NCBI GenBank assembly: GCA_036873755.1
Contig: JAVTVY010025208.1
Coordinates: 1-64,000 of the forward strand
Origin: Hanleya hanleyi
Lineage: Eukaryota > Mollusca > Polyplacophora > Lepidopleurida > Hanleyidae
Reading direction: 5' to 3'
Length of the DNA stretch: 64,000 bases
A program made the position numbers and the translations under genes. Position 1 is the first letter of the stretch; each line of letters begins with the position of its first letter. The notes below the pieces were generated by a model. It had not been told where the DNA came from. It did no database searches and worked only from the letters and a program-made list of their open reading frames with translations. Of this stretch, positions 7,226-58,600 are shown piece after piece.

Positions 7226-7832
7226 TCCTACGAAGTAGGCTACCATTTGCAAATTCTCCGATAATGAGTGAGTGAGTCAGTCCATCCGAATCATTTCGTT
7301 GGCAAATTAAGGAGAACCGTTGACATTAGAACCTTGATTTTTGGCATGAACGTGCATTAGTGCATTGTTGCCAGCAAGTTCTGAACTGACCGAATTCTGA
7401 TGAAAATTTGATTTATAATTATTTTCTAATTATTTATTGATGGCTCAGCGAGTGCACCGTCATGCCCATCGGGAACCCTTGGATGTATGTTTCACTGTGA
7501 CTTTTGAGGGTTCCCTGATACGGCATATCACGTTGGACACACCGGTTCTCGTGAAATCATCGAAGTTAAGCGACTTTGAGCCCGGTCAAGACTTGGATAG
7601 GTAACCTAGTGCTGTACTGCTGGGCTGATAATTATAAGTGTCCAGGGTAATAGGAACCGAGGGCGATAATAGTTGCTACGCTGATGACTCACCAGCGGTG
7701 ACATCTGGAAAAGTTAATAGTACCCACTGTCAATTAGAGACTGCGATATGAATTCTCTCACGGTAGCACATAGGGCCCCCGAGTCATCTCTCGAGTACAC
7801 ACTTAAATCATTTCAAACCCTACTTCGTAGGT
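7226..7832 (+). repeat. 5S rRNA-derived SINE, copy 1, within a CCTACGAAGTAGG-bounded segment
   Basis: About 7517-7625 aligns along most of 5S rRNA, with recognisable internal-control-region words such as GAAGTTAAGC and ACTTGGATAGGTAACC, but with many substitutions. It is followed by a non-5S body (GTGTCCAGGGTAATAGGAAC) that also follows the 5S part at 31105-31345. A shared tail behind a 5S head defines a 5S-derived SINE (SINE3 class) rather than a stray 5S pseudogene. Related words CCTACGAAGTAGG (7228) and CCTACTTCGTAGG (7820) bracket the segment; whether they bound a larger element is unclear. Confidence 0.7.
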
Positions 7833-11188: not shown

Positions 11189-11194
11189 ATCCCC
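11189..11194. repeat. Left target-site duplication of the palindrome (ATCCCC)
   Basis: ATCCCC lies immediately outside the left terminus and recurs at 18803-18808 immediately outside the right terminus. The uninterrupted arm of the host foldback has the site once (as ATCCAC), so this is a true 6-bp duplication. Confidence 0.85.
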
Positions 11195-11640
11195 AGTAGT
11201 ATAGAAAGCGTATTACAGCGCGCATTGACCTACTTTTTTGTTCCCCGCGGGTAAAATTTGAGGCGGAACTGGGGCGGGGTTTCCCAGTGGGGATTCCCCA
11301 GTGGGGGTTTCCCATGACGATCACGTGATCAAGGCATGTCTAGACTTGTTCTGGGTTGTACAGTTCTGCCATGCGGAGGATGGGTACTAGTATTTCGCTG
11401 ACGTCCTAGTAATAAACATAATCTATAGGTGTTGTACCATGTTAATAGGATCAGTCTAGCATCTGTACCACCCTAGGGTCGAGCGTTTATTGTCCCGTGT
11501 ATCTCCGCAAAAAATCAACAAACAAAATGGCGGCTCCAGGATGGTGTGGGGACGCCCTTTCCACATCACGGCGTCGATCCTAACCATAGCGCCATCTGCA
11601 CACACTGACGCAAGGGAGACAACTCGTGTGGACCAAGGGT
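11195..11640. repeat. Palindrome outer arm segment (left), promoter-like motifs
   Basis: Unique, non-tandem outer part of the left arm, mirrored at about 18357-18802. It contains GGGATTCCCC between GGGG runs (near 11290), GATCACGTGATC (near 11320) and AAAATGGCGGC (near 11525). These resemble kB, E-box and YY1 type sites; function is unproven. The inverted copy differs by scattered substitutions. Confidence 0.7.
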
Positions 11641-12850
11641 ATGGAAATAGACGTTTTGGCATCTAGGGGAGCCACTATTGGTCCAGTGGGGTCATATGAG
11701 GTATCAATGTGAAGCATTCGTGAAGGGGCATCTGATGGGCTGGGTGTGGGGTTGAAATATCGGCATTCTGCGCATGCGCGGTGGCCCAAGGGTATGAAAA
11801 TAGACGTTTTGGAGCTGGGGAAGCCCCTAATGGTCCGATGGGGTCGAGTGAGGTATCAAAGTGAAGCATTCGTGAAGGGGCACCTGACTGGACTAGGGGC
11901 TCGTGCGTTGTCACCATTCTGCGCATGCGCGGTGGCCCAAGGGTATGAAAATAGACGTTTTGGAGCTAGGGAAGCCAATAATGGTCCGATGGGGTCGAGT
12001 GAGGTATCAAAGTGAAGCATTCGTGAAGGGGCATATCACTGGACTAGTGGGTTGAAATAGCATCATTCTGCGCATGCGCGGTGGCCAAAGGGTATGGAAA
12101 TAGACGTTTTGGAGAAAGGGGAGCCCCTAGTGGACCAATGGGGTCGAGTGAGGTATCAAAGTGAAGCATTCGTGAAGGGGCATCTAATGGGCTGGGTGTG
12201 CGGTTGAAATATCGGCATTCTGCGCATGCGCGGTGGCCAAAGGGTATGGAAATAGCCGTTTTGGAGTTAGGGGAGCCACTAATGGTCGAATGGGGTCGAG
12301 TGAGGTATCAAAGTGAAGCATTCGTGAAGGGGCATCTGATGGACTGGGTGTGGGGTTGAAATATCGGCATTCTGCGCATGCGCGGTGGCCAAAGGGTATG
12401 AAAATAGACGTTTTGGAGCTAGGGGAGCCCCTAATGGTCCAATGGGGTCAGTGAGGTATCAAAGTGAAGCATTCGTGAAGGGGCATCTGATGGACTGGGT
12501 GTGGGGTTGAAATATCGGCATTCTGCGCATGCGCGGTGGCCCAAGGGTATGAAAATAGACGTTTTGGAGCTAGGGGAGCCCCTAATGGACCAATGGGGTC
12601 GAGTTAGGTATCAAAGTGAAGCATTCGTGAAGGGACATCTGATGGGCTGGGTGCGGGGTTGAAATATCGGCATTCTGCGCATGCGCGGTGGCCAAAGGGT
12701 ATGGAAATAGACGTGTTGGAGCTAGGGGAGCCCCTAGTGGACCAATGGGGTCGAGTGAGGTATCAAAGTGAAGCATTCGTGAAGGGGCATCTGATGGGTT
12801 GGGTGTGCGGTAGGGATATCATTCTGCGCATGCGCAGACGCAATGCGGAG
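11640..12850. repeat. Satellite A, left arm: ~151-bp monomers with GCGCATGCGC
   Basis: The word CTGCGCATGCGC starts at 11768, 11919, 12068, 12220, 12372, 12523, 12675 and 12824 (spacings 149-152 bp). Each monomer also carries GTATGAAAATAGACGTTTTG and GAGGTATCAAAGTGAAGC. GCGCATGCGC is the NRF-1 core palindrome. The array is mirrored in the right arm. Confidence 0.9.
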
Positions 12851-13185
12851 CTCTCGTCCAATCAGAAGCGAGTATTTCAAATCCGTCACAGATCTCTCAG
12901 CCAATCAGCAGCGAGTATTTTGACCCGGTGCATTATGAGACATATCCAAGATGGCGGCACGTATGTTCAAGATGGCGGCACATCCGGTGTCCAAAACTGG
13001 CCATTTCGTCGGGATGTGGTCACCTAGTGTCGAAAACTGGACCTTGTATGGGTCCTGCTAGACGTTTTGGATCTAGGGGAGCCCCTAATGGGCCGATGGA
13101 GTTGTATGAGGTATCAAAGTGAAGTATATTTCAAGCATGGGTGGGTGCATGTAAAATTTTTCCTGAAAAAATACGGAACACGGAC
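12850..13185. repeat. Linker with CCAAT and YY1-type motifs, left arm
   Basis: Two CCAATCAG words (near 12858 and 12900), each followed by a GCGAGTATTT block, then two AAGATGGCGGC words (near 12949 and 12968), then a return to satellite-like sequence with GAGGTATCAAAGTGAAG. Motif order resembles a compact CpG promoter. Mirrored at about 16812-17147. Confidence 0.7.
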
Positions 13186-13189
13186 TTTA

Positions 13190-13790
13190 TCCTAAATTAC
13201 GTGAAAATGCCTATATGGGGTATGGGGGGTATAGGACCATCGTCGGAAACCTACTTCTCGACATTTGCGGTATAGGTTGTGGGGTCTCGTTTTCTTAGTC
13301 TCGTCAAGACAAACATGATAGGAAGTGTCCCGGAGCGAATCGGTGAAATTTTTGAAAAAAGTACGATATAGCCCCATATAGTCTCATACTGGGGGTATAG
13401 GACCAATGTTTGTCCCCCTGGGAAATCTACTTCTAGACATTTGCGGTAGGGTTGTTTGGATTTGTTTTTCACGTCTCGTCATTTAGAACATGACAGGAAG
13501 TGTCCCGGAGCGAATCGGTGAAATTTTTGAAAAAGTTCGAGGAGCCCCATATAGACCCGTATAGTCCCATACTGGGGTATAGGATCAATGTTTGTCCCCC
13601 TGGGAAACGTACATCTATACATTTGCGGTAGGGTTGTTTGGATTTGTTTTTCACGTCTCGTCATTTAGAACATGATAGGAAGTGTCGCGGAGCGAATCGG
13701 TGAAATTTTTGGAAAAAGTCACCGAGGCCTGGGTAGGCTCATATAGACCCATATACTGGGATATAAGCCCAATGTATGTATAAATCCATA
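13190..13790. repeat. Satellite B, left arm: ~175-182-bp monomers
   Basis: CGGAGCGAATCGGTGAAATT starts at 13331, 13506 and (as GCGGAGCG) about 13688. Monomers also share TTTGTCCCCCTGGGAAA and CATTTGCGGTA. No NRF-1 or CRE palindrome occurs in these monomers. Mirrored at about 16207-16807. Confidence 0.85.
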
Positions 13791-13839
13791 CGGGGTGGAC
13801 ATTGTGAGGTCTAGGTGGGCCACTAATGGGCCAATGGTG

Positions 13840-14320
13840 TCGTATGAGGTCTTATTTTGAAGCTCTCATGCAGGAGCACTTGACTACACTAATGGTTCGT
13901 CCGTGTTCAATAGTCTGCGCATGCGCAGCCTGGCCGTAGTAGAGAAAGCATGCGTTTTTTGAGGTATGTGGGTGTGTGTTTGGGGTAGAGATGGGTTATT
14001 CACGGTTCGAATGGGTCGTGTGAGGTATCAATGTGAAGCTTGTGTGGGGTAGAGTCAGAATGGCGTGTTTTTAAATGCAAGTCGCGTCAATCTGCGCATG
14101 CGCAGCCTGGCCGTAGTAGAGAAAACAGGCATTTTTGGGGTATGTGGGTGTGTGTTTGGGGTAGAGATGGCCCGCTATGGGTCGTGGAAGGTGTCAAAGT
14201 GAAGCTTGTGTGGGTGAGAGTCCGAATGATGTGCTTTTAAGTGCAAGTCGCGGTAATCTGCGCATGCGCAGTTGGTTGTAGTAAGTAAAGTGGCCATTTT
14301 GGGGCAGTACATGAAGGTAT
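13840..14320. repeat. Satellite C, left arm: ~172-bp monomers with TGCGCATGCGCA
   Basis: CTGCGCATGCGCAG starts at about 13915, 14092 and 14258. It is followed by a GTAGTAAGTAAAG or GTAGTAGAGAAA block and by GTGTGAGGTATCAATGTGAAG. That last block is shared with satellite A, so A and C are homologous. One left-arm monomer has lost 10 bp between two GGGTC words relative to the right arm. Confidence 0.85.
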
Positions 14321-15677
14321 TTGGGGTCGAGATGGACCATCCTTGGTCCGAATGCGTCCTGGGAGGTGTCATTTTGTAGTTCTCGGGGTGTACATTCCGA
14401 TTTGAGGGATTATCCCGTCATCTGTGACGTCATCGATGACGTCATCAGTACGAGTAGTAGCGAAAGTGAGCCTTTTGGGGTAGTGAAGGATGTTATTTGG
14501 GGTCGAGATGGACCATCCTTGGTCCGAATGCGTCCTGGGAGGTGTCATTTTGTAGTTCTCGAGGTGTACATTCCGATTTGAGGGCTGTTCCCGTCATCTG
14601 TGACGTCATCGATGACGTCATCAGTACGAGTAGTAGCGAAAGTGAGCCTTTTGGGGTAGTGAAGGATGTTATTTGGTGTAGAGATGGGCCATCCTTGGTC
14701 CGAATGCGTCGTGGGATGCAGTGGACAGCCCTTAAATCGGGGTCTGCACCCCGAGAACTACAAAATGACACCCCACACGACGCATTCGGACTGACAATGG
14801 CGCATCTCTACCCAAAATACCTTCCTTCACTGCCCCAAAATGCTCACTTTTGCTACTACTCCTACTGATGACGTCACAGATGGCGTGGACAGCCCTCAAA
14901 TCGGGGTCTGCACCCCGAAAACTACAAGACGACACCCCACACGACGCATTCGGACCAAGGATGGTCCCTCTCTACCCCACATACCTTCCTTCAGTGCCCT
15001 AAAATGCCCACTTTCGCTACTACTCGTACTGATGACGTCACAGATACTATGAACAGCCCCCAAATCGGGGTCTACATCCCGAGAGCTACAAAAGGACACC
15101 TCCCAGGACGCATTCGGACCAAGGATGGCCCCTCTCTACCCCAAATACCTGCCTGCACTGCCGTAAAATGTTCACTTTCGCTACTACTCGTACTGATGAC
15201 GTCACCGATGAGGTCACAGATGCTGTGGACAGCCCTCCAATCGGGGTCTACACCCCGAGAGCTACAAGATGACACCTCCCACGACGCACCAAGGATGGTC
15301 CATCTCTACACCAAATAACACCCTTCACTACCCCAAAAGGCTCACTTTCGCTACTACTCGTACTGATGACGTCATCGATGACGTCACAGATGACGGGAAC
15401 AGCCCTCAAATCGGAATGTACACCCCGAGAACTACAAAATGACACCTCCCAGGACGCATTCGGACCAAGGATGGTCCATCTCGACCCCAAATAACATCCT
15501 TCACTACCCCAAAAGGCTCACTTTCGCTACTACTCGTACTGATGACGTCATCGATGACGTCACAGATGACGGGATAATCCCTCAAATCGGAATGTACACC
15601 CCGAGAACTACAAAATGACACCTCCCAGGACGCATTCGGACCAAGGATGGTCCATCTCGACCCCAAATACCTTCATG
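14320..15677. repeat. Satellite D and palindrome centre: ~164-176-bp monomers with TGACGTCA
   Basis: Monomer marks (CCTTGGTCCG or its complement) lie at 14341, 14517 and 14693 in one orientation, then at about 14787, 14951, 15115, 15285, 15461 and 15637 in the other. The switch is near 14716. Three monomers on each side pair, and three more (14717-15275) form a 559-bp unpaired spacer. Eleven exact TGACGTCA octamers occur, at 14425, 14437, 14601, 14613, 14868, 15033, 15197, 15367, 15379, 15543 and 15555. Confidence 0.9.
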
Positions 15678-16157
15678 TACTGCCCCAAAATGGCCACTTT
15701 ACTTACTACAACCAACTGCGCATGCGCAGATTAACGCGACTTGCACTTAAAAGCACATCATTCTGACTCTCACCCACACAAGCTTCACTTTGACACCTTC
15801 CACGACCCATTCGGACCCATAGCGGGCCATCTCTACCCCAAACACACACCCACATACCCCAAAAATGCCTGTTTTCTCTACTACGGCCAGGCTGCGCATG
15901 CGCAGATTGACGCGACTTGCATTTAAAAACACGCCATTCTGACTCTACCCCACACAAGCTTCACATTGATACCTCACACGACCCATTCGAACAGTGAATA
16001 ACCCATCTCTACCCCAAACACACACCCACACACCTCAAAAAACGCCTGCTTTCTCTACTACGGCCAGGCTGCGCATGCGCAGACTATTGAATACGGACGA
16101 ACCATTAGTGTAGTCAAGTGCTCCTGCATGAGAGCTTCAAAATAAGACCTCATACGA
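15677..16157. repeat. Satellite C, right arm (inverted copy)
   Basis: Mirror of 13840-14320. Retains the 10 bp (within CCCATTCGGACCCATAGC, near 15810) that the left arm has lost. Confidence 0.85.
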
Positions 16158-16206
16158 CACCATTGGCCCATTAGTGGCCCACCTAGACCTCACAATGTCC
16201 ACCCCG

Positions 16207-16807
16207 TATGGATTTATACATACATTGGGCTTATACCCCAGTATATGGGTCTATATGAGCCTACCCAGGCCTCGGTGACTTTTTCCAAAAATTTCACCGA
16301 TTCGCTCCGCGACACTTCCTATCATGTTCTAAATGACGAGACGTGAAAAACAAATCCAAACAACCCTACCGCAAATGTATAGATGTACGTTTTCCAGGGG
16401 GACAAACATTGATCCTATACCCCAGTATGGGACTATACGGGTCTATATGGGGCTCCTCGAACTTTTTCAAAAATTTCACCGATTCGCTCCGGGACACTTC
16501 CTATCATGTTCTAAATGACGAGACGTGAAAAACAAATCCAAACAACCCTACCGCAAATGTCTAGAAGTAGATTTCCCAGGGGGACAAACATTGGTCCTAT
16601 ACCCCCAGTATGGGACTATATGGGGCTATATCGTACTTTTTTCAAAAATTTCACCGATTCGCTCCGGGACACTTACTATCATGTTTGTCTTGACGAGACT
16701 AAGAAAACGAGACCCCACAACCTATACCGCAAATGTCGAGAAGTAGGTTTCCGAGGATGGTCCTATACCCCCCATACCCCATATAGGCATTTTCACGTAA
16801 TTTAGGA
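16207..16807. repeat. Satellite B, right arm (inverted copy)
   Basis: Mirror of 13190-13790 with scattered substitutions and no net length change. Confidence 0.85.
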
Positions 16808-17146
16808 TAAAGTCCGTGTTCCGTATTTTTTCAGGAAAAATTTTACATGCACCCACCCATGCTTGAAATATACTTCACTTTGATACCTCATACAACTCCA
16901 TCGGCCCATTAGGGGCTCCCCTAGCTCCAAAACGTCTAGCAGGACCCATACAAGGTCCAGTTTTCGACACTAGGTGACCACATCCCGACGAAATGGCCAG
17001 TTTTGGACACCGGATGTGCCGCCATCTTGAACATACGTGCCGCCATCTTGGATATGTCTCATAATGCACCGGGTCAAAATACTCGCTGCTGATTGGCTGA
17101 GAGATCTGTGACGGATTTGAAATACTCGCTTCTGATTGGACGAGAG

Positions 17147-18357
17147 CTCCGCATTGCGTCTGCGCATGCGCAGAATGATATCCCTACCGCACACCCAACC
17201 CATCAGATGCCCCTTCACGAATGCTTCACTTTGATACCTCACTCGACCCCATTGGTCCACTAGGGGCTCCCCTAGCTCCAACACGTCTATTTCCATACCC
17301 TTTCGCCACCGCGCATGCGCAGAATGCCGATATTTCAACCCCGCACCCAGCCCATCAGATATCCCTTCACGAATGCTTCACTTTGATACCTAACTCGACC
17401 CCATTGGTCCATTAGGGGCTCCCCCAGCTCCAAAACGTCTATTTTCATACCCTTGGGCCACCGCGCATGCGCAGAATGCCGATATTTCAACCCCACACCC
17501 AGCCCATCAGATGCCCCTTCACGAATGCTTCACATTGATACCTCATATGACCCCATTGGACCATTAGGGGCTCCCCTAGCTCCAAAACGTCTATTTTCAT
17601 ACCCTTTGGCCACCGCGCATGCGCAGAATGCCGATATTTCAACCCCACACCCAGTCCATCAGATGCCCCTTCACGAATGCTTCACTTTGATACCTCACTC
17701 GACCCCATTCGACCATTAGGGACTCCCCTAACTCCAAAACGGCTATTTCCATACCCTTTGGCCACCGCGCATGCACAGAATGCCGATATTTCAACCCCAC
17801 ACCCAGCCCATTAGATGCCCCTTCACGAATGCTTCACTTTGATACCTCACTCGACCCCATTGGTCCACTAGGGGCTCCCCTTTCTCCAAAACGTCTATTT
17901 CCATACCCTTTGGCCACCGCGCATGCGCAGAATGACGCTATTTCAACCCACTAGTCCAGTGATATGCCCCTTCACGAATGCTTCACTTTGATACCTCACT
18001 CGACCCCATCGGACCATTATTGGCTTCTCTAGCTCCAAAACGTCTATTTTCATACCCTTGGGCCACCGCGCATGCGCAGAATGGTGACAACGCACGAGCC
18101 CCTAGTCCAGTCAGGTGCCCCTTCACGAATGCTTCACTTTGATACCTCACTCGACCCCATCAGACCATTAGGGGCTTTCCTAGCTCCAAAACGTCTATTT
18201 TCATACCCTTGGGCCACCGCGCATGCGCAGAATGCCGATATTTCAACCCCACACCCAGCCCATCAGATGCCCCTTCACGAATGCTTCACATTGATACCTC
18301 ATATGACCCCACTGGACCAATAGTGGCTCCCCTAGATGCCAAAACGTCTATTTCCAT
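17147..18357. repeat. Satellite A, right arm (inverted copy)
   Basis: Mirror of 11640-12850. One GCGCATGCGC core is mutated to GCGCATGCAC (near 17768). Some monomer variants differ from their mirror partner, for example CATATGACCCC near 17546 against GGGGTCAGTGAGG in the left arm. Confidence 0.85.
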
Positions 18358-18802
18358 ACCCTTGGTCCACACGAGTTGTCTCCCTTGCGTCAGTGTGTGC
18401 AGATGGCGCTATGGTTAGGATCGACGCCGTGATGTGGAAAGGGCGTCCCCACACCATCCTGGAGCCGCCATTTTGTTTGTTGATTTTTTGCGGAGATACA
18501 CGGGACAATAAACACTCGACCCTAGGGTGGCACGATGCTAGACTGATGCTATTAACATGGTACAACACCTATAGATTATGTTTATTACTAGGACGTCAGC
18601 GAAATACTAGTACCCATCCTCCGCATGGCAGAACTGTACAACCCAGAACAAGTCTAGACATGCCTTGATCACGTGATCGTCATGGGAAACCCCCACTGGG
18701 GAATCCCCACTGGGAAACCCCGCCCCAGTTCCGCCTCAAATTTTACCCGGGGGGAACAAAAAAGTAGGTCAATGGGCGCTGTAATACGCTTTCTATACTA
18801 CT

Positions 18803-18808
18803 ATCCCC
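18803..18808. repeat. Right target-site duplication of the palindrome (ATCCCC)
   Basis: Second copy of the 6-bp duplication, directly after the right terminus CTATACTACT. Confidence 0.85.
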
Positions 18809-24403: not shown

Positions 24404-27400
24404 AATGCTGCTAAGCCGATTGATATTTGGCGTGCTGTAAAAGAGTCTGTCGGATCAGGGCCGAAAGTCCTGGATTGATTAGCGCAGGTGACAACGGACC
24501 TCTGGATTGTGACACTAAAAAATGAACAGGCCAGAGATGTTCTCCTCTCAAACAATATCTTGCATTTTCAAGATCAGTGCGCTCACTTTGAGGTGATTGC
24601 ACCCAAGAAAGTACTTGTCAGAACAAAATGCCCTGTGGAGATACCAAACACTGACATCAGACATATTTTTGAGAAATATGGTAAAGTTCATGACATTTTT
24701 GACGAGTACTATACTTTCGACAGAGATTTCAAAACTGGGAGTAGGAAGGTGATCAGAATTTGAAAAGAGTTGTTCACAAGAACTACAAGCAGTTTCTTTT
24801 GCTAAATTGCTAACCAACCCATACCCACATCTTCAGGAGTTGCACATATTAAAAACACATGGTTTAATGATGTCTGCAAAGAAGTAAGGAAACGTAGGAA
24901 GAAAGCTGAACGGTGTTTCCGCTGACATCCAAATTCTGAAAATTTGAAAGATCTCAGAGTAACTAAAGCTAAAGCTCTTAGAACCATGAAACAGAACAAA
25001 CGTGATTCTTGGAAAAAAATATGATTCTAAGTTTGGAATATGATGCAAGGAATAAAAGGTAAACGCTCCAAGCCGAGTGTTCATCTCAACGATGGAAATC
25101 AGGTGTTAACTGACATAGTAGAGATTGCAAATAAGCTAGGTGAAACAATTGCTAAAATAAATTCTTCAGATAATTATGTACCTAAATTTCAAAGTTTCCA
25201 GAAAAGAGAAGGCAAAAATGAAATTAAATTCCCCTCCGGTAACCATGAAGGCTATTACGCTAAGTTTACAATTGAGGAACTTCATGCTTCTCTCTCGAAA
25301 GCTAACGATTCTGCTGCAGGCCCTGATAATACCCATTATCAACTTTTGAAACATCTACCCGAATCTTCTCTAGAAATTCTATTACGCATATTCAACAGAC
25401 TTTGGCCAAGAGAAGACTTTCCAACGTCATGGCATAATGCCATCGGTATACCAGTACCAAAACCTGGCCGTAACCATACATACCCTGGTAATTATTGTCC
25501 GATTTCACTGACGAGCTGTGTTTGTAAAACAGTGGAACACATGATAAATGATCGTCTTGTTTGGTACCTAGAAACTGAAAAGTAACTTACTGATATTGAA
25601 GCTGATTTCCGTAAAAATAGAATACCATTGACCAGTTAGTCAGACGAGATTCCTGTCAAGAATACTTTCGCCAAGAATGAAGATGTAGTTTCCAATTTTT
25701 TTTTATTTAGAAAAAGCCGATGATACTACATGGAAATATGGGATTCTAAAAGACCTTCACACTATGGAATTAAAGGGTTATTTGCCCATTTTCATATCCT
25801 ACTTTTTGAATGATAGACAAGACAATTCCAAGTTCGGTTGGGAACACCATGTCTGCTCATTTCGACCAAGATCAAGATGTCCCACAGGGCAGTATTTTGT
25901 CTACTACTCTCTTTAGTGTGAAGATAACAGCATGGCGAAGTTTTGAATAAATCAATCGATAGTGCACTCTTTGTAGACGATTTCAACATTTCGTGCACTG
26001 GAAAAAGTATACACAATATTGACAGAATATTACAACTTGTCCGAATAAAATTCAAAAATGGTGTCTAGAAAATGGCTTCAAATTCTCCAGGATTAAGACA
26101 AATTGTATACACTTCTGCAGAAAATACTTCCAGAACAAAGATCCAGTACTTGTATTAGATGGAACTGAAATCAAAGTGGTAAAAGAGGTCAAATTCTTAG
26201 GAATGTTGTTTGACCACCAACTAACATTCAAGTCGCATATATACTGCTTTAATAGCAAATAAGTGCACGAAAGCTCTTGATTTATTGAAGGTAGTTGCCA
26301 ACTATAAGCGGGGAAGAGATCAGCAAAGACTTCTCCATTTATATCGATCATTTGTTCGTTCCAAACTTGATTATGGCTCTATTGTTTACAACGGTGCAAG
26401 CAAGTCAAACTTGGCAAAGCTAGATTCTAGTCTCCATCAAGGACTAAGTCTTTGCCTTGGACCGTTCAGAACATCCCATGTTAAAGAAATCTTATATGTC
26501 GAAGCAGATGAATTTCCTTTAGAACTTCGAAGACTTAAACTGTCACTGCAATATATCACAAAGTTGCGATCAAATCATTCGAATCCTGCATATAACTGTG
26601 TTTTCAAATCTCAGTTCGCGGATCTCTATTTGAAGAAACCCTCCATTATTCCACCTCTTGGAATTCGTATGAAACCACACATTGTAGCGGCTGGTATTAA
26701 TCTTAGTCAAATTTTACCTAACAAGCTCTTACCAATTCCCCCATTGCAGTTAACTCAACCAGAAGTAGATATTTCTGTAACGGAATATAAAAAGACAGAC
26801 ACGAGCCAGCTCTTGTATACACAAGAATTTGGTCTATTGAGAGAGAATTACAGATCGCATCGGGTTATTTATACAGATGGTTCTAAAGATGACGAGAGAG
26901 TAGCATGTGCTACTATCTTTTGTTCCAAAACTAAAACCTGTTGACTGCCAGGTAAAAGGTCGATATTCATTGCAGAAGCAAAAGCCATATTCTTGGCTTT
27001 AGAAGGTATTGGGTCCACTAAAAGGAAAAATATGTCATATATTCTCAGATTCAAGCGATTAAAAGTGGAACTTCGACTCATCCCACTATCTTGAGTATTC
27101 TACAACTACATGACTGTAGATTTGATCAACAGATTGATATTGTGTTTTGTTGGTTGCCCAGTCACGTTGGAATCAAAGCTAATACTGAGGCTGATAGGAT
27201 GGCTAAGGCAGCCCTAGATGATGAGGTCGATCCTGTTGGTATCTCATATAGAGATTTCAGACCCTCTATCTGTACCTATGTGAGACGGCTGTTTCAATCT
27301 TTATGGGATGCTGTGAATAATAAACTTCATGAGTTCAAAAAAACTGTAGGCTATACTCACCTGAACAGTCAGAAACGTTTCGATCAAACCATGATCAGGC

Positions 27401-27785
27401 TATGTAGAATCGGCCATACACGATTAACTCACGAACATTTACTAAAAAAAGAGCCAGTCCCAAGGTGTATTCCATGCCATGAAGATCTCACGGTGAAACA
27501 TGTACTTATCGAATATATAGATTTTAATAATCTAAGAGATGCTTTTTATCGAATGACTACTTTGGAAGATCTTTTTGGTCGGGTGAGGGAGGATTGCATG
27601 TTGGGTTGTTTTAGACAAATCGGTTTGTTACATAAGTTTTAATGTGTGTATGTTTTAATGCGTTGAATTACTAAGTTATTGGCTTGAGTACTTAGAATTT
27701 TGTTTGATCGTCGCTACATAGCTGAAATATTGCTGAACACGACATTAAACATTACTTCTCTTTCTCTTTCTCTCTCCTTTCACTA
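24404..27785 (+). pseudogene. Degenerate I-superfamily LINE (ORF1 piece, RT, RNase H)
   Basis: About 24404-24763 encodes an ORF1-like piece (residues IWRAVKESVGSGPKV, one stop, then TTDLWIVTLKNEQARDVLL). From 24845 the frame jumps to the ORF2 linker; the endonuclease is missing. 25040-25585 encodes the start of RT (SLSKANDSAAGPDNTHY, FPTSWHNAIGIPVPKPGRN, NYCPISLTSCVCKTVEHMIN). 26285-26944 holds the thumb/connection region and the RNase H start YTDGSKDDERVA. 27091-27642 holds the RNase H end (WLPSHVGIKANTEADRMAK) and a C-terminal CxxC...H motif. Several frameshifts and stops break it, and the YxDD motif is lost or degraded. RNase H places it near I/Nimb-type LINEs. The 3' end is a CTTTCTCTTTCTC tract (about 27755-27780). 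Confidence 0.85.
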
Positions 27786-36068: not shown

Positions 36069-37697
36069 CATCACACAGGAGAAGGACCAACATGAACTGA
36101 CTTAAATTTACAGTTCGAGAGAAAAATCGGAAAAATCAAACTATCCTGCACAATTTGGCAGAAGTATAGGTATTTGCTTCATTTTCGCACGATGATGTTG
36201 ATTGCATTTATTGTGCAGTTATTGAACATTGGCGCTGAGGGATTTGCGGCGACCAGGATAGCTGTGGGAATGTCACACGATGTGGGCGGGACAGCGGTGC
36301 TGTCGAATTCACAAAACAGCTGATTAAGATCAAAATCAAAGTCGTCGGCATGGCCTTCTGCTCGTACATCCTGGGTGTGTAACACGGCCGACGTGGCATC
36401 ATTTGACGTGGGTGCAGGGTACTGAGAAGATGATGTCACAGTTTCTGCAGGATGGGGTTTGACAAGAACATTTACTGGAAGTGTATGCGTACCGGTATTC
36501 GTCTTTCGGGTTGAACCCATCGTGTCAGGAAAGGCTACTGACGCAACCGTGTGGCCCATTTGCAGTTTCTCGCCATCACTTACTCGCTGGTAAACCGACA
36601 GCGACGAGACAGATCTGTGACCTGTGACAGCCATTATTTGAGATGCTGAATAGTTGTTTCTACCAAGGATGGTGATGCCGGTTGCTCGTATACTGTGGTT
36701 AGTGTATGGTTCCGAAAGTTTCAGACGAGTGCCCAGGTTGGTCATGAAGGCTGCCAAGCGGTGTTTCCCAATAGGTTTGTTATAATACCAAACTTTATCG
36801 TCGTCGAGGAAACCGGGTACTGCCACAAGCGATCACATTTCGGATGGAGTTTGGAGATATAACTTTCGAATGAAGCAACAGGACAGAACGGGGAACCTTC
36901 TTCTTCAGGCATGAATCCGGTAACACCCTCTTTTTGCTGGGCCCGGCGATTTTTTGTGAGTTCATCCTCCTTTTTTTTCACATACCTCTGCCCAGTTTTC
37001 GGGTCCCGCTTGATGATGAATGTGTTTTTTGTCATCTTTTCCATATTCTCCACTCCCCTTCTAAAGAAGAACAGACGTACATCGAACTGAACTTTATTTG
37101 CAAGCCCAGTTGGGGTTTTTGGGGACATGAGAACAGACTTGTAGAGTTTACAACGATCGGACTCGTTTATGGGCTCATAATGATCGGTGTCGCCTTTTCC
37201 AGATGCCTTCAACTCTGCAAGTGCGGTTTTGAAGCACTCGTTGGCTTCATTAAACTCCGAATTTCTAATCAAATCAAAAGTTTTCAAATACGGTGGGGCC
37301 TTCAGGTAACGATTCAGAGAATGTCGAAAGTTTTCGAGAGTGGATGTTTTGTACAATTCTCCGTCTTGTTTTCGGGCATCCAAATAAAAATGACTGAGTA
37401 CCTCTGCTAACCTCTCGGCCGAGAATCCTTCGAATTCTTCACTCTGTCCCTTCTCTTTCAGGCAATACTTCAAAGTTCTGGCGGACGCTTTGTTCGACTT
37501 TTTTGTGTTGCTGGGAATAATATTAGCCCGCTTTTCAACAACTTCATCGTCCGTGTGAGACGCGAAACGTTTGCCTGATTCAGCCATTTTGTTTAGCAGA
37601 CGATGTAATCTAGTGAACACCTGTTCGTTGCCCTTGGCGACGGGGGTATACGATATATATTCGACCAGCAAGTTGGCAATACAGCATCACACAGGAG
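36069..37697. mobile_element. Crypton-like element bounded by CATCACACAGGAG
   Basis: CATCACACAGGAG is present exactly at 36069-36081 and 37685-37697, bracketing the recombinase gene in direct orientation. Cryptons have short direct rather than inverted ends, which fits. A LINE-mediated retrocopy would need an A-rich 3' end, which is not seen here. Confidence 0.55.
36179..37587 (-). pseudogene. Crypton-like tyrosine recombinase (ZMYM2/QRICH1-type domain), frameshifted
   Basis: I place the start at the Met at 37587 (MAESGKRFASHTDDEVVEKR), typical for this family; an upstream Met at 37671 is possible. Residues 30-110 form the SAM-like core-binding region (KSNKASARTLKYC, LENFRHSLNRYL). The first catalytic Arg is in RLFFFRRGVENM (about 176-177). 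After a frame change near 36815 the second frame carries DDDKVWYYNKPIGKH, the HxxR box NHSIRATGITILGR, a TGHRSVSSLSVYQR block with the second His and the Tyr nucleophile, and an S/T-rich tail. All tetrad residues survive, so only the frameshift (or an assembly error) breaks it. It could be a Crypton transposon gene or a domesticated relative. It is flanked by a 13-bp direct repeat. Confidence 0.85.
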
Positions 37698-57614: not shown

Positions 57615-58600
57615 GAAGGTTATTGTCCTCCGCCACGAAGTGGTGGGAGGACTTGGAAATGCTAGCCGTCCGTCCTTCCGTCCGTCCGTCCCAAATCTTG
57701 TGAACGCGATATCTTGAGAACAATTCGACCAGTCGACTTCAAACTTGAGAAGGTGCTTCACAACTGTTGGACCGCCATTGGTATTGATTTTCACGGAGGT
57801 ACGTAATCCAAGATGGCTGCCATTGACATATTGGATTCTGTCCGTCCCACATCTTGTGAACGCGATATCTCGAGAACAATTCAACCAATCGACTTCAATC
57901 TTGAGAAGGTGCTTCACATCAATTAGACGGCCATTGGTATTAATTTTCACTGTGGTACGTAATCCAAGATGGCTGCCATTGACCATATTGGATTCCATCC
58001 ATCCCAGATCTTGTGAGCCCGATATCTCGAGAACAAAACAACCAATCGACTTCAAACTTGGGAAGGTACTTAACATCAGTTAGCTGGCCATTGGTATCGA
58101 TTTTCACTGAGGTACGTAATCCAAGATGGCTGCCATTGGCCATATTGGATTCTGTTCATCCCACATTTTGTGAACGCGATATCTAGAGAACAATTCGACC
58201 AATTGATTTCAAACTTGAGAATGGGGCTTCGCATCAGTGAGACGGCCATTGGTATTGATTTTCACTGAGGTACGTAATCCAAGATGGCTGCCATTGATCA
58301 TATTTGATTCCGTCTGTCCCACATCTTGTGAACGCGATATCTCGAGAACAAAACAACCAATCAACTTCAAACTTGGGAAGGTACTTAACATCAGTTAGAT
58401 GGCCATTGGTATCGATTTACACTGAGGTACGTAATCCAAAATGGCTACCATTGACCATATTGGATTCCATCCGTCTCGCATCTTGTGAACACGATATCTC
58501 ACGAACAATTCGACCAATCGACTTCAAACTTGAGAAGGTTCTTCACATCAGTTAGACGGTCATTGGTATTGGTTGTGAACGCGATATCTTGATCTGTGCC
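57615..58600. repeat. ~157-bp tandem satellite, about six monomers
   Basis: CGTAATCCAAGATGGCTGCC begins at 57802, 57958, 58115, 58273 and 58430 (spacings 156-158 bp). Each monomer has TTGTGAACGCGATATCTCGA and GAGAAGGTGCTTCACATC-like blocks. A CCGTCCGT microsatellite precedes it (57665-57692). AAGATGGCTGCC is YY1-like. ORFs through it are repeat artefacts. Confidence 0.85.

Follow-up and report, generated by a model that had tools for sequence, protein, structure and literature searches.

What is the 7.6-kb palindrome that lies in the first 64,000 nucleotides of a contig from the chiton Hanleya hanleyi, and by what route did it arrive there? The window, meaning the whole 64-kb stretch that was analysed, belongs to contig C20565 of the 2.48-Gb assembly in which we searched, and element coordinates are positions within this window. 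The original prediction had described one transposable element, a giant non-autonomous relative of the Polintons, and our analysis agrees, as other copies with the same ends and a gene-bearing Polinton (C14334) were found in the same genome. We consider it very probable that the element in the window is a single inserted copy of a non-autonomous palindromic relative of this genome's Polintons (Mavericks), mainly because ends and duplications are shared. Its boundaries, arms and terminal segments are as follows.

11189-11194, forward strand: left target-site duplication ATCCCC, a direct repeat; the 6-mers differ in other copies
18803-18808, forward strand: right target-site duplication ATCCCC, a direct repeat
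11195-18802, no strand: palindromic element of 7,608 bp between the ATCCCC repeats, from its inverted self-match
11195-14698, forward strand: left arm, from arm pairing
about 15289-18802, reverse strand: right arm, with 36 substitutions and three indels relative to the left arm
11195-11350, forward strand: left terminal 156 bp, starting AGTAGT, 93-94% identical to both ends of Polinton C14334
18647-18802, reverse strand: right terminal 156 bp, the mirror of the left terminal 156 bp with 1.3% difference

The element was confirmed as a genuine palindrome with a 6-bp flanking duplication. Its outermost letters are AGTAGTATAG...CTATACTACT, and its top inverted self-match scored 6127 bits, compared with at most 33.7 bits in 50 two-base-block shuffles. 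The arms had been said to pair base for base. This held for the register, with a coordinate sum of 29997 that is found at both ends and along most of each arm, but not for every base, since over about 3.5 kb the arms differ by 36 substitutions (1.0%), two 1-bp indels and one 10-bp indel. The sum is 29998 between the two 1-bp indels and 29987 inward of the 10-bp indel at 14176, and the central 590 bp or so (14699-15288) show no in-register pairing.

As far as tested, the sequence between the exact ATCCCC repeats contains no recognisable gene, in line with its earlier description as a gene-less palindrome. Pfam gave nothing at E<=0.01 for six stop-to-stop frames of 110-148 amino acids inside the element, and a tblastn comparison of the element with seven zinc-finger-bearing open reading frames (ORFs) from relatives was likewise negative at E<=0.001. 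Polinton ORFs compared by tblastn gave 23 matches, of which at least 12 (the 12 listed) cover the ends or a segment found upstream of the polymerase, and not known genes. Genes for a protein-primed PolB, an rve integrase, a capsid, an ATPase or a protease, as an autonomous Polinton would carry, were not found in 11195-18802.

The genome was searched with the 100-bp left end (40 matches scored of 1085 candidates) and with a second end type (40 of 2105); in all genome searches reported here, candidate numbers are not copy numbers. Leaving aside the locus of the query itself, 39 of the 40 scored left-end matches start within query bases 4-7, as is expected for a mobile end; base 7 directly follows the duplication. 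Eight contigs carry inverted end pairs (the window, C14334, C18716, C18449, C19791, C37961, C37913 and C22143). Exact 6-bp duplications flank six of these eight: ATCCCC in the window, ATCGTC in C14334, AACACT in C18716, CACCTA in C18449, GTCATG in C19791 and CACGAC in C37913. The duplication boundary of C18449 is shifted by one AGT, because its ends hold an extra AGT, and the C37913 pair, known here from its ends alone, spans 16.9 kb. A terminus search with alignment of all copies for such duplications had been proposed earlier; carried out on a part of the copies, it showed the exact duplications in the six pairs named. Among ends left unpaired, the reciprocal 6-mer TAGTTC links C18491 with C34603, which have inner sequence in common (one copy of inner segment s4 is identical), and CCTATG links C38683 with C22718; both links were chosen by eye and are suggestive only. 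At C34603 (left), C9588 (right) and C5310 (both sides), the end search found no end. A 16-base exact end pattern was also run against viral contigs and hit three stretches, none of which matched the 100-bp terminus at E<=0.001; on a rough estimate we judged them to be chance.

A gene-bearing Polinton with the same termini, which had been named as something to look for, was found in C14334:22646-39732. It is 17.1 kb long, has inverted repeats of 168 bp, and both its ends are 93-94% identical to the terminal 156 bp of the window element. Pfam assigned its ORFs to an rve integrase (E 7.6e-10), a chromodomain and a Pox_A32-like ATPase, together with a weak Peptidase_C5 (adenovirus-type protease) match below the curated cut-off. 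These ORFs recur in the same-ended copies C38683, C39253, C881, C31756 and C22718, and partly in C19791. The polymerase is spread over several frames in C14334; another copy has it in a single frame of 1338 residues. We take it to belong to the B family from motifs that we recognise as exonuclease (YDFEA, NSGRYD) and polymerase (DANALY, GNGYYGK, DTD) signatures. It had no relative in the viral contigs, and in PHROGs and PDB parts of it drew no more than weak matches, of an endonuclease-like or zinc-finger kind. Capsid-like ORFs had no match in Pfam or PHROGs, nor in PDB for the one tried. As a separate observation, the sequence immediately upstream of position 3941 in L015, the boundary of the polymerase ORF, contains AGTAGTATAAAAAGCG...ATTGACCT, an internal look-alike of the element terminus. 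Another concerns C19791, whose element measures 11.2 kb, has Polinton ends and the exact duplication GTCATG, and yielded only the first 51 polymerase residues; in it, a 163-residue open frame (L020:8961-9449) codes for a core histone domain (PF00125, E 3.5e-35), apparently that of a divergent H3.

Within the window element, tandem-repeat analysis and arm pairing gave the following inner features.

11628-12835, forward strand: 152-bp tandem array of 8 copies, with GCGCATGCGC present in many units
17162-18370, reverse strand: mirror of the 152-bp array
13245-13719, forward strand: 182-bp tandem array of 2.7 copies
16278-16756, reverse strand: mirror of the 182-bp array
14287-14716, forward strand: 176-bp tandem array of 2.4 copies, with units likewise similar to the polymerase-upstream segment
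14721-15700, reverse strand: 164/176-bp array of 5.8 copies in opposite orientation, containing most of the unpaired centre 14699-15288
15716-16083: further tandem array
13787-14030, forward strand: polymerase-upstream-like segment (arm 2593-2836), 80% identical to the upstream region in C14334
15967-16210, reverse strand: mirror of the polymerase-upstream-like segment, placed via arm pairing

These seven arrays fill much of the element but leave gaps, and the earlier description of an element made wholly of satellite arrays was thus a little too strong. The centre is unequal because the 176-bp array runs on in opposite orientation for 5.8 copies. In C14334 the counterpart of arm 2593-2836 sits 250-490 bp upstream of the polymerase ORF, and the 176-bp and 152-bp array units resemble parts of this segment (68-90% across the arms compared). 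The arms therefore look like multiplied upstream DNA of a polymerase gene, as judged from these similarities. The segment contains GCGCATGCGC, which we take to be an NRF1 site; this motif occurs 21 times in the element, nowhere else in the window and once in C14334. A motif that we presume to be a CREB site, TGACGTCA, occurs 11 times in the element and twice in the rest of the window. Three further counts were not used as evidence. CACGTG occurs twice in the element and 16 times elsewhere in the window, AAGATGGCGGC twice in the element, never elsewhere in the window and 8 times in C14334 away from the polymerase end, and CCAAT/ATTGG 23 times in the element and 117 times elsewhere in the window.

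Trees were built from 11 palindrome and 5 Polinton rows for the inner segment s4 and from 13 and 9 such rows, respectively, for the terminal 156 bp. The s4 tree separated palindromes from Polintons with 100/100 support, whereas in the terminal tree the two groups were mixed, with three changes, and 0% of the bootstrap trees had only one. The nearest between-group distances were 15-19% for s4 as against 2.6-6.8% for the nearest terminal comparisons listed, and so the ends stay near those of the helper while the inside drifts. The two ends of an element were mutually nearest in four of six both-ended elements (the window, C18716, C18449 and C19791), the right end of C18716 having entered without its outermost 25 bases. 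For the inner arms of the window (s2-s4), C37961, C45672 or C24658 was as close as the opposite arm or closer, which indicates that the palindrome was inherited and not made at this insertion. In most elements, by these comparisons, the ends are kept alike and near those of the helper, as two-ended replication of a linear molecule would do.

The window element is one of a class. C18716, C18449, C37961 and C34603 are palindromic over most of the length read, with best arm matches of 93-97% and lower stretches of 80-90%, and in C22143 both sides hold arm sequence, one mirroring the other. In the stretches read of C9588 and C18491, the inverted repeats are confined to short central ones of 0.67 and 0.59 kb, respectively, and C19791 lacks inner inverted arms. 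An inner-arm query, for which 40 of 1278 candidates were scored, found mirror-arranged matches on C51895, C15451, C14380 and C6309; among those scored, all five contigs with opposite-strand inner-arm matches, the window included, have this arrangement. Two loci stand out on their own account. C37961:168769-181413 is a 12.6-kb palindrome of the window's subtype with mismatched flanking 6-mers and ends that are not mutually nearest; it may be a recombinant, possibly of two insertions. C9069:12177-28470 carries four same-strand inner-arm copies 5.2-5.7 kb apart, as if the arm or the element had become a long-period tandem satellite.

Several of the palindromes bear genes. C18449 contains mirror-image copies of an ORF in which a C2H2 motif (a weak Pfam match, below cut-off) is followed by a Polinton-type ATPase; this ATPase is 43% identical to that of C14334 over 199 columns and keeps its Walker motifs (GPTACGKT and VVVLDDLM). 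C18716, C18491 and C24658 contain ORFs of 316-344 amino acids with C2H2 fingers; behind the fingers, most of these ORFs have a domain that shares 61-66% identity with residues 31-199 of the Polinton polymerase ORF. In C34603 the zinc-finger fusion ORFs are shorter or split. When the 344-residue zinc-finger/PolB-N protein was searched in the genome, 117 of 49,040 candidates were scored and 110 of these were stop-free; the scored ones being the best matches, this openness is biased upward, and some of them may lie outside palindromes. Nine contigs have two matches, and on every one of these the match with the lower coordinate is on the minus strand and its partner on the plus strand, as is expected of outward-reading mirror copies. 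The ratio of non-synonymous to synonymous rates (dN/dS) between the two paralogous ORFs of one element was 0.41-0.44 over 329 codons, which fits past selection on the protein. Counted against selection on the fusion ORFs, though less clear for want of changes, were the two zinc-finger-ATPase copies of C18449 (one synonymous and seven non-synonymous changes, ratio 2.14, too small a number for a verdict), a second ORF pair of C18449 (0.68) and like ORFs compared between elements (0.42-0.70, with few changes). A search of 5.8 billion proteins for kin of the zinc-finger/PolB-N protein took 885 candidates of 0.55-1.75 times the query length, a range that leaves out full polymerases; none of them was related at E<=0.001, and viral contigs held no relative either.

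Could the element have arisen otherwise? Its anatomy recalls classical foldback DNA transposons of the FB, Galileo or Tetris type, which a cut-and-paste transposase would have moved and whose likeness to Polintons would be due to chance. Tetris of Drosophila virilis is reported to have arms of up to 1.7 kb with tandem repeats of about 220 bp and no conserved ORF, and its autonomous partner had not been found (PMC4079207). The window element is likewise built of long inverted arms that contain tandem repeats, and it lacks a recognisable gene. However, its arms reach 3.5 kb, its duplication is 6 bp and not 8-10 bp as given for Tetris (PMC4079207), and a gene-bearing Polinton of the same genome carries the same 156-bp ends, which largely refutes a foldback origin and makes it very unlikely. 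A fold-over copy of one real arm is even harder to credit. Large palindromes are difficult to assemble, and the sequence used here is an assembled one; against such an artefact, 36 substitutions (1%) separate the arms, other contigs hold relatives at least as close to the inner segments of each arm as the opposite arm is, and a perfect duplication marks the outer edges. Like-built palindromes on other contigs also speak against it, and we hold this explanation for the least likely.

Two adjacent insertions, or satellite DNA that gained Polinton ends by recombination, would account for the state of C37961 and for the four same-strand matches about 5 kb apart on C9069, by which arm-like DNA occurs in tandem too. 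They would also suit the four mirror-match contigs, C51895, C14380, C15451 and C6309, where the terminus was absent at eight of eight predicted end places. Nevertheless, the window has a perfect 6-bp duplication and mutually nearest ends, and the mirror arrangement recurs on all five contigs noted above, and we regard such an origin as highly improbable. The absent termini count as well against our preferred reading, a single insertion of a Polinton relative, and so do the following points. Within the gene-less subtype only the window combines both ends with a perfect duplication; C37961 has both ends, flanked by ACCGCA and ATCGAC (three of six bases equal, no exact duplication) and no closer to each other than to other ends, and in C9588 one end and, in the part read, only the central inverted repeat were found. 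C22143 is flanked by GTCACA and GTCGCT, with four of six bases equal and no exact duplication. The terminal tree is weak, as 11 of 19 inner branches are open and the strongly supported branches force only one change, and its labels are still clustered relative to shuffles (three changes, shuffled mean 7.2). The left end of C14334 is nearest not to its own right end but to an end of Polinton C39253, from which it does not differ, the inner s4 arms of C18449 are mutually nearest, unlike those of the window, and the Polinton polymerase had no match in Pfam, its naming being by motif alone.

Because the ends and the duplication length are shared and the element has no gene of its own, we strongly infer that it would be a palindromic satellite replicated and integrated in trans by Polinton proteins. 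Helper proteins would copy the element as a linear duplex from protein-primed ends, and the helper integrase would join both ends to a 6-bp staggered cut. Snap-back events are known in protein-primed linear genomes. The palindromic lineage probably arose from such an event at one end of a Polinton-like ancestor and would then have been inherited as a palindrome, its arms being filled with tandem copies of, for example, the polymerase-upstream segment. The usual picture of Polintons is one of self-sufficient virus-like elements. A helper-dependent palindromic class would show that they have parasites of their own in animal genomes, would account for one way in which large palindromes and satellite-like arrays are dispersed, and would offer tests of Polinton replication, namely of origin sequences, of the polymerase N-terminus as a priming domain and of DNA packaging. 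A phrase search of 5.39 million open-access papers for non-autonomous or palindromic Polintons or Mavericks found none, subscription papers, preprints and Repbase lying outside this search.

A bolder possibility, which we offer tentatively and hold to be rather doubtful, is that the palindromes are true Polinton satellites and that the zinc-finger fusions of their gene-bearing members would bind the arm arrays and draw helper replication or packaging onto the palindromes, which agrees with the anatomy. The fusions would then combine fingers with the N-terminal domain of the polymerase or with the packaging ATPase, and gene-less members such as the window copy would be second-order parasites with only a landing array and ends. 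If true, this would be an animal counterpart of helper-hijacking phage satellites, inside transposons. Phage-inducible islands are helper-dependent satellites that redirect the packaging of their helper. The likeness would lie in the idea only, in that gene-bearing palindromes encode fingers joined to pieces of a helper polymerase or ATPase; in contrast to the islands, the window copy has no gene and its relatives are known here from sequence alone.

Two further systems invite comparison. Helentrons are rolling-circle elements without inverted arms or target-site duplications. Satellite-like arrays in oysters, which are bivalves, are reported to be likewise dispersed by a mobile element, there a Helentron (PMC7492417). 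The closest match is to the Polintons or Mavericks (adintovirus-like proviruses). According to a published study, vertebrate Mavericks have (AGT)2//(ACT)2 ends, 6-bp duplications, lengths of 12.7-24.6 kb and inverted repeats of 46-1447 bp (PMC8097293). The window element, with AGTAGT...ACTACT ends, a 6-bp duplication and the 156-bp ends of gene-bearing copies in its own genome, agrees with this pattern, and the earlier comparison of its duplication and 5'-AG ends with Polinton integration was well founded. It differs in having no recognisable genes and in its size, 7.6 kb with 3.5-kb arms.

Elsewhere in the window, a Crypton-like tyrosine recombinase remnant lies at 36179-37686 on the reverse strand, with named relatives in molluscs (oysters, a scallop, mussels, a sea snail and a chiton). 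At 7516-7620 on the forward strand, a 5S rRNA-like match of 41.5 bits (cut-off 38) is possibly a 5S-derived repeat. A remnant of a retrotransposon of the long interspersed element (LINE) type occupies 25031-27642 on the forward strand, some of its relatives carrying reverse transcriptase or RNase H domains, and a 157-bp tandem array of 5.7 copies at 57681-58571 has no similarity to the palindrome.

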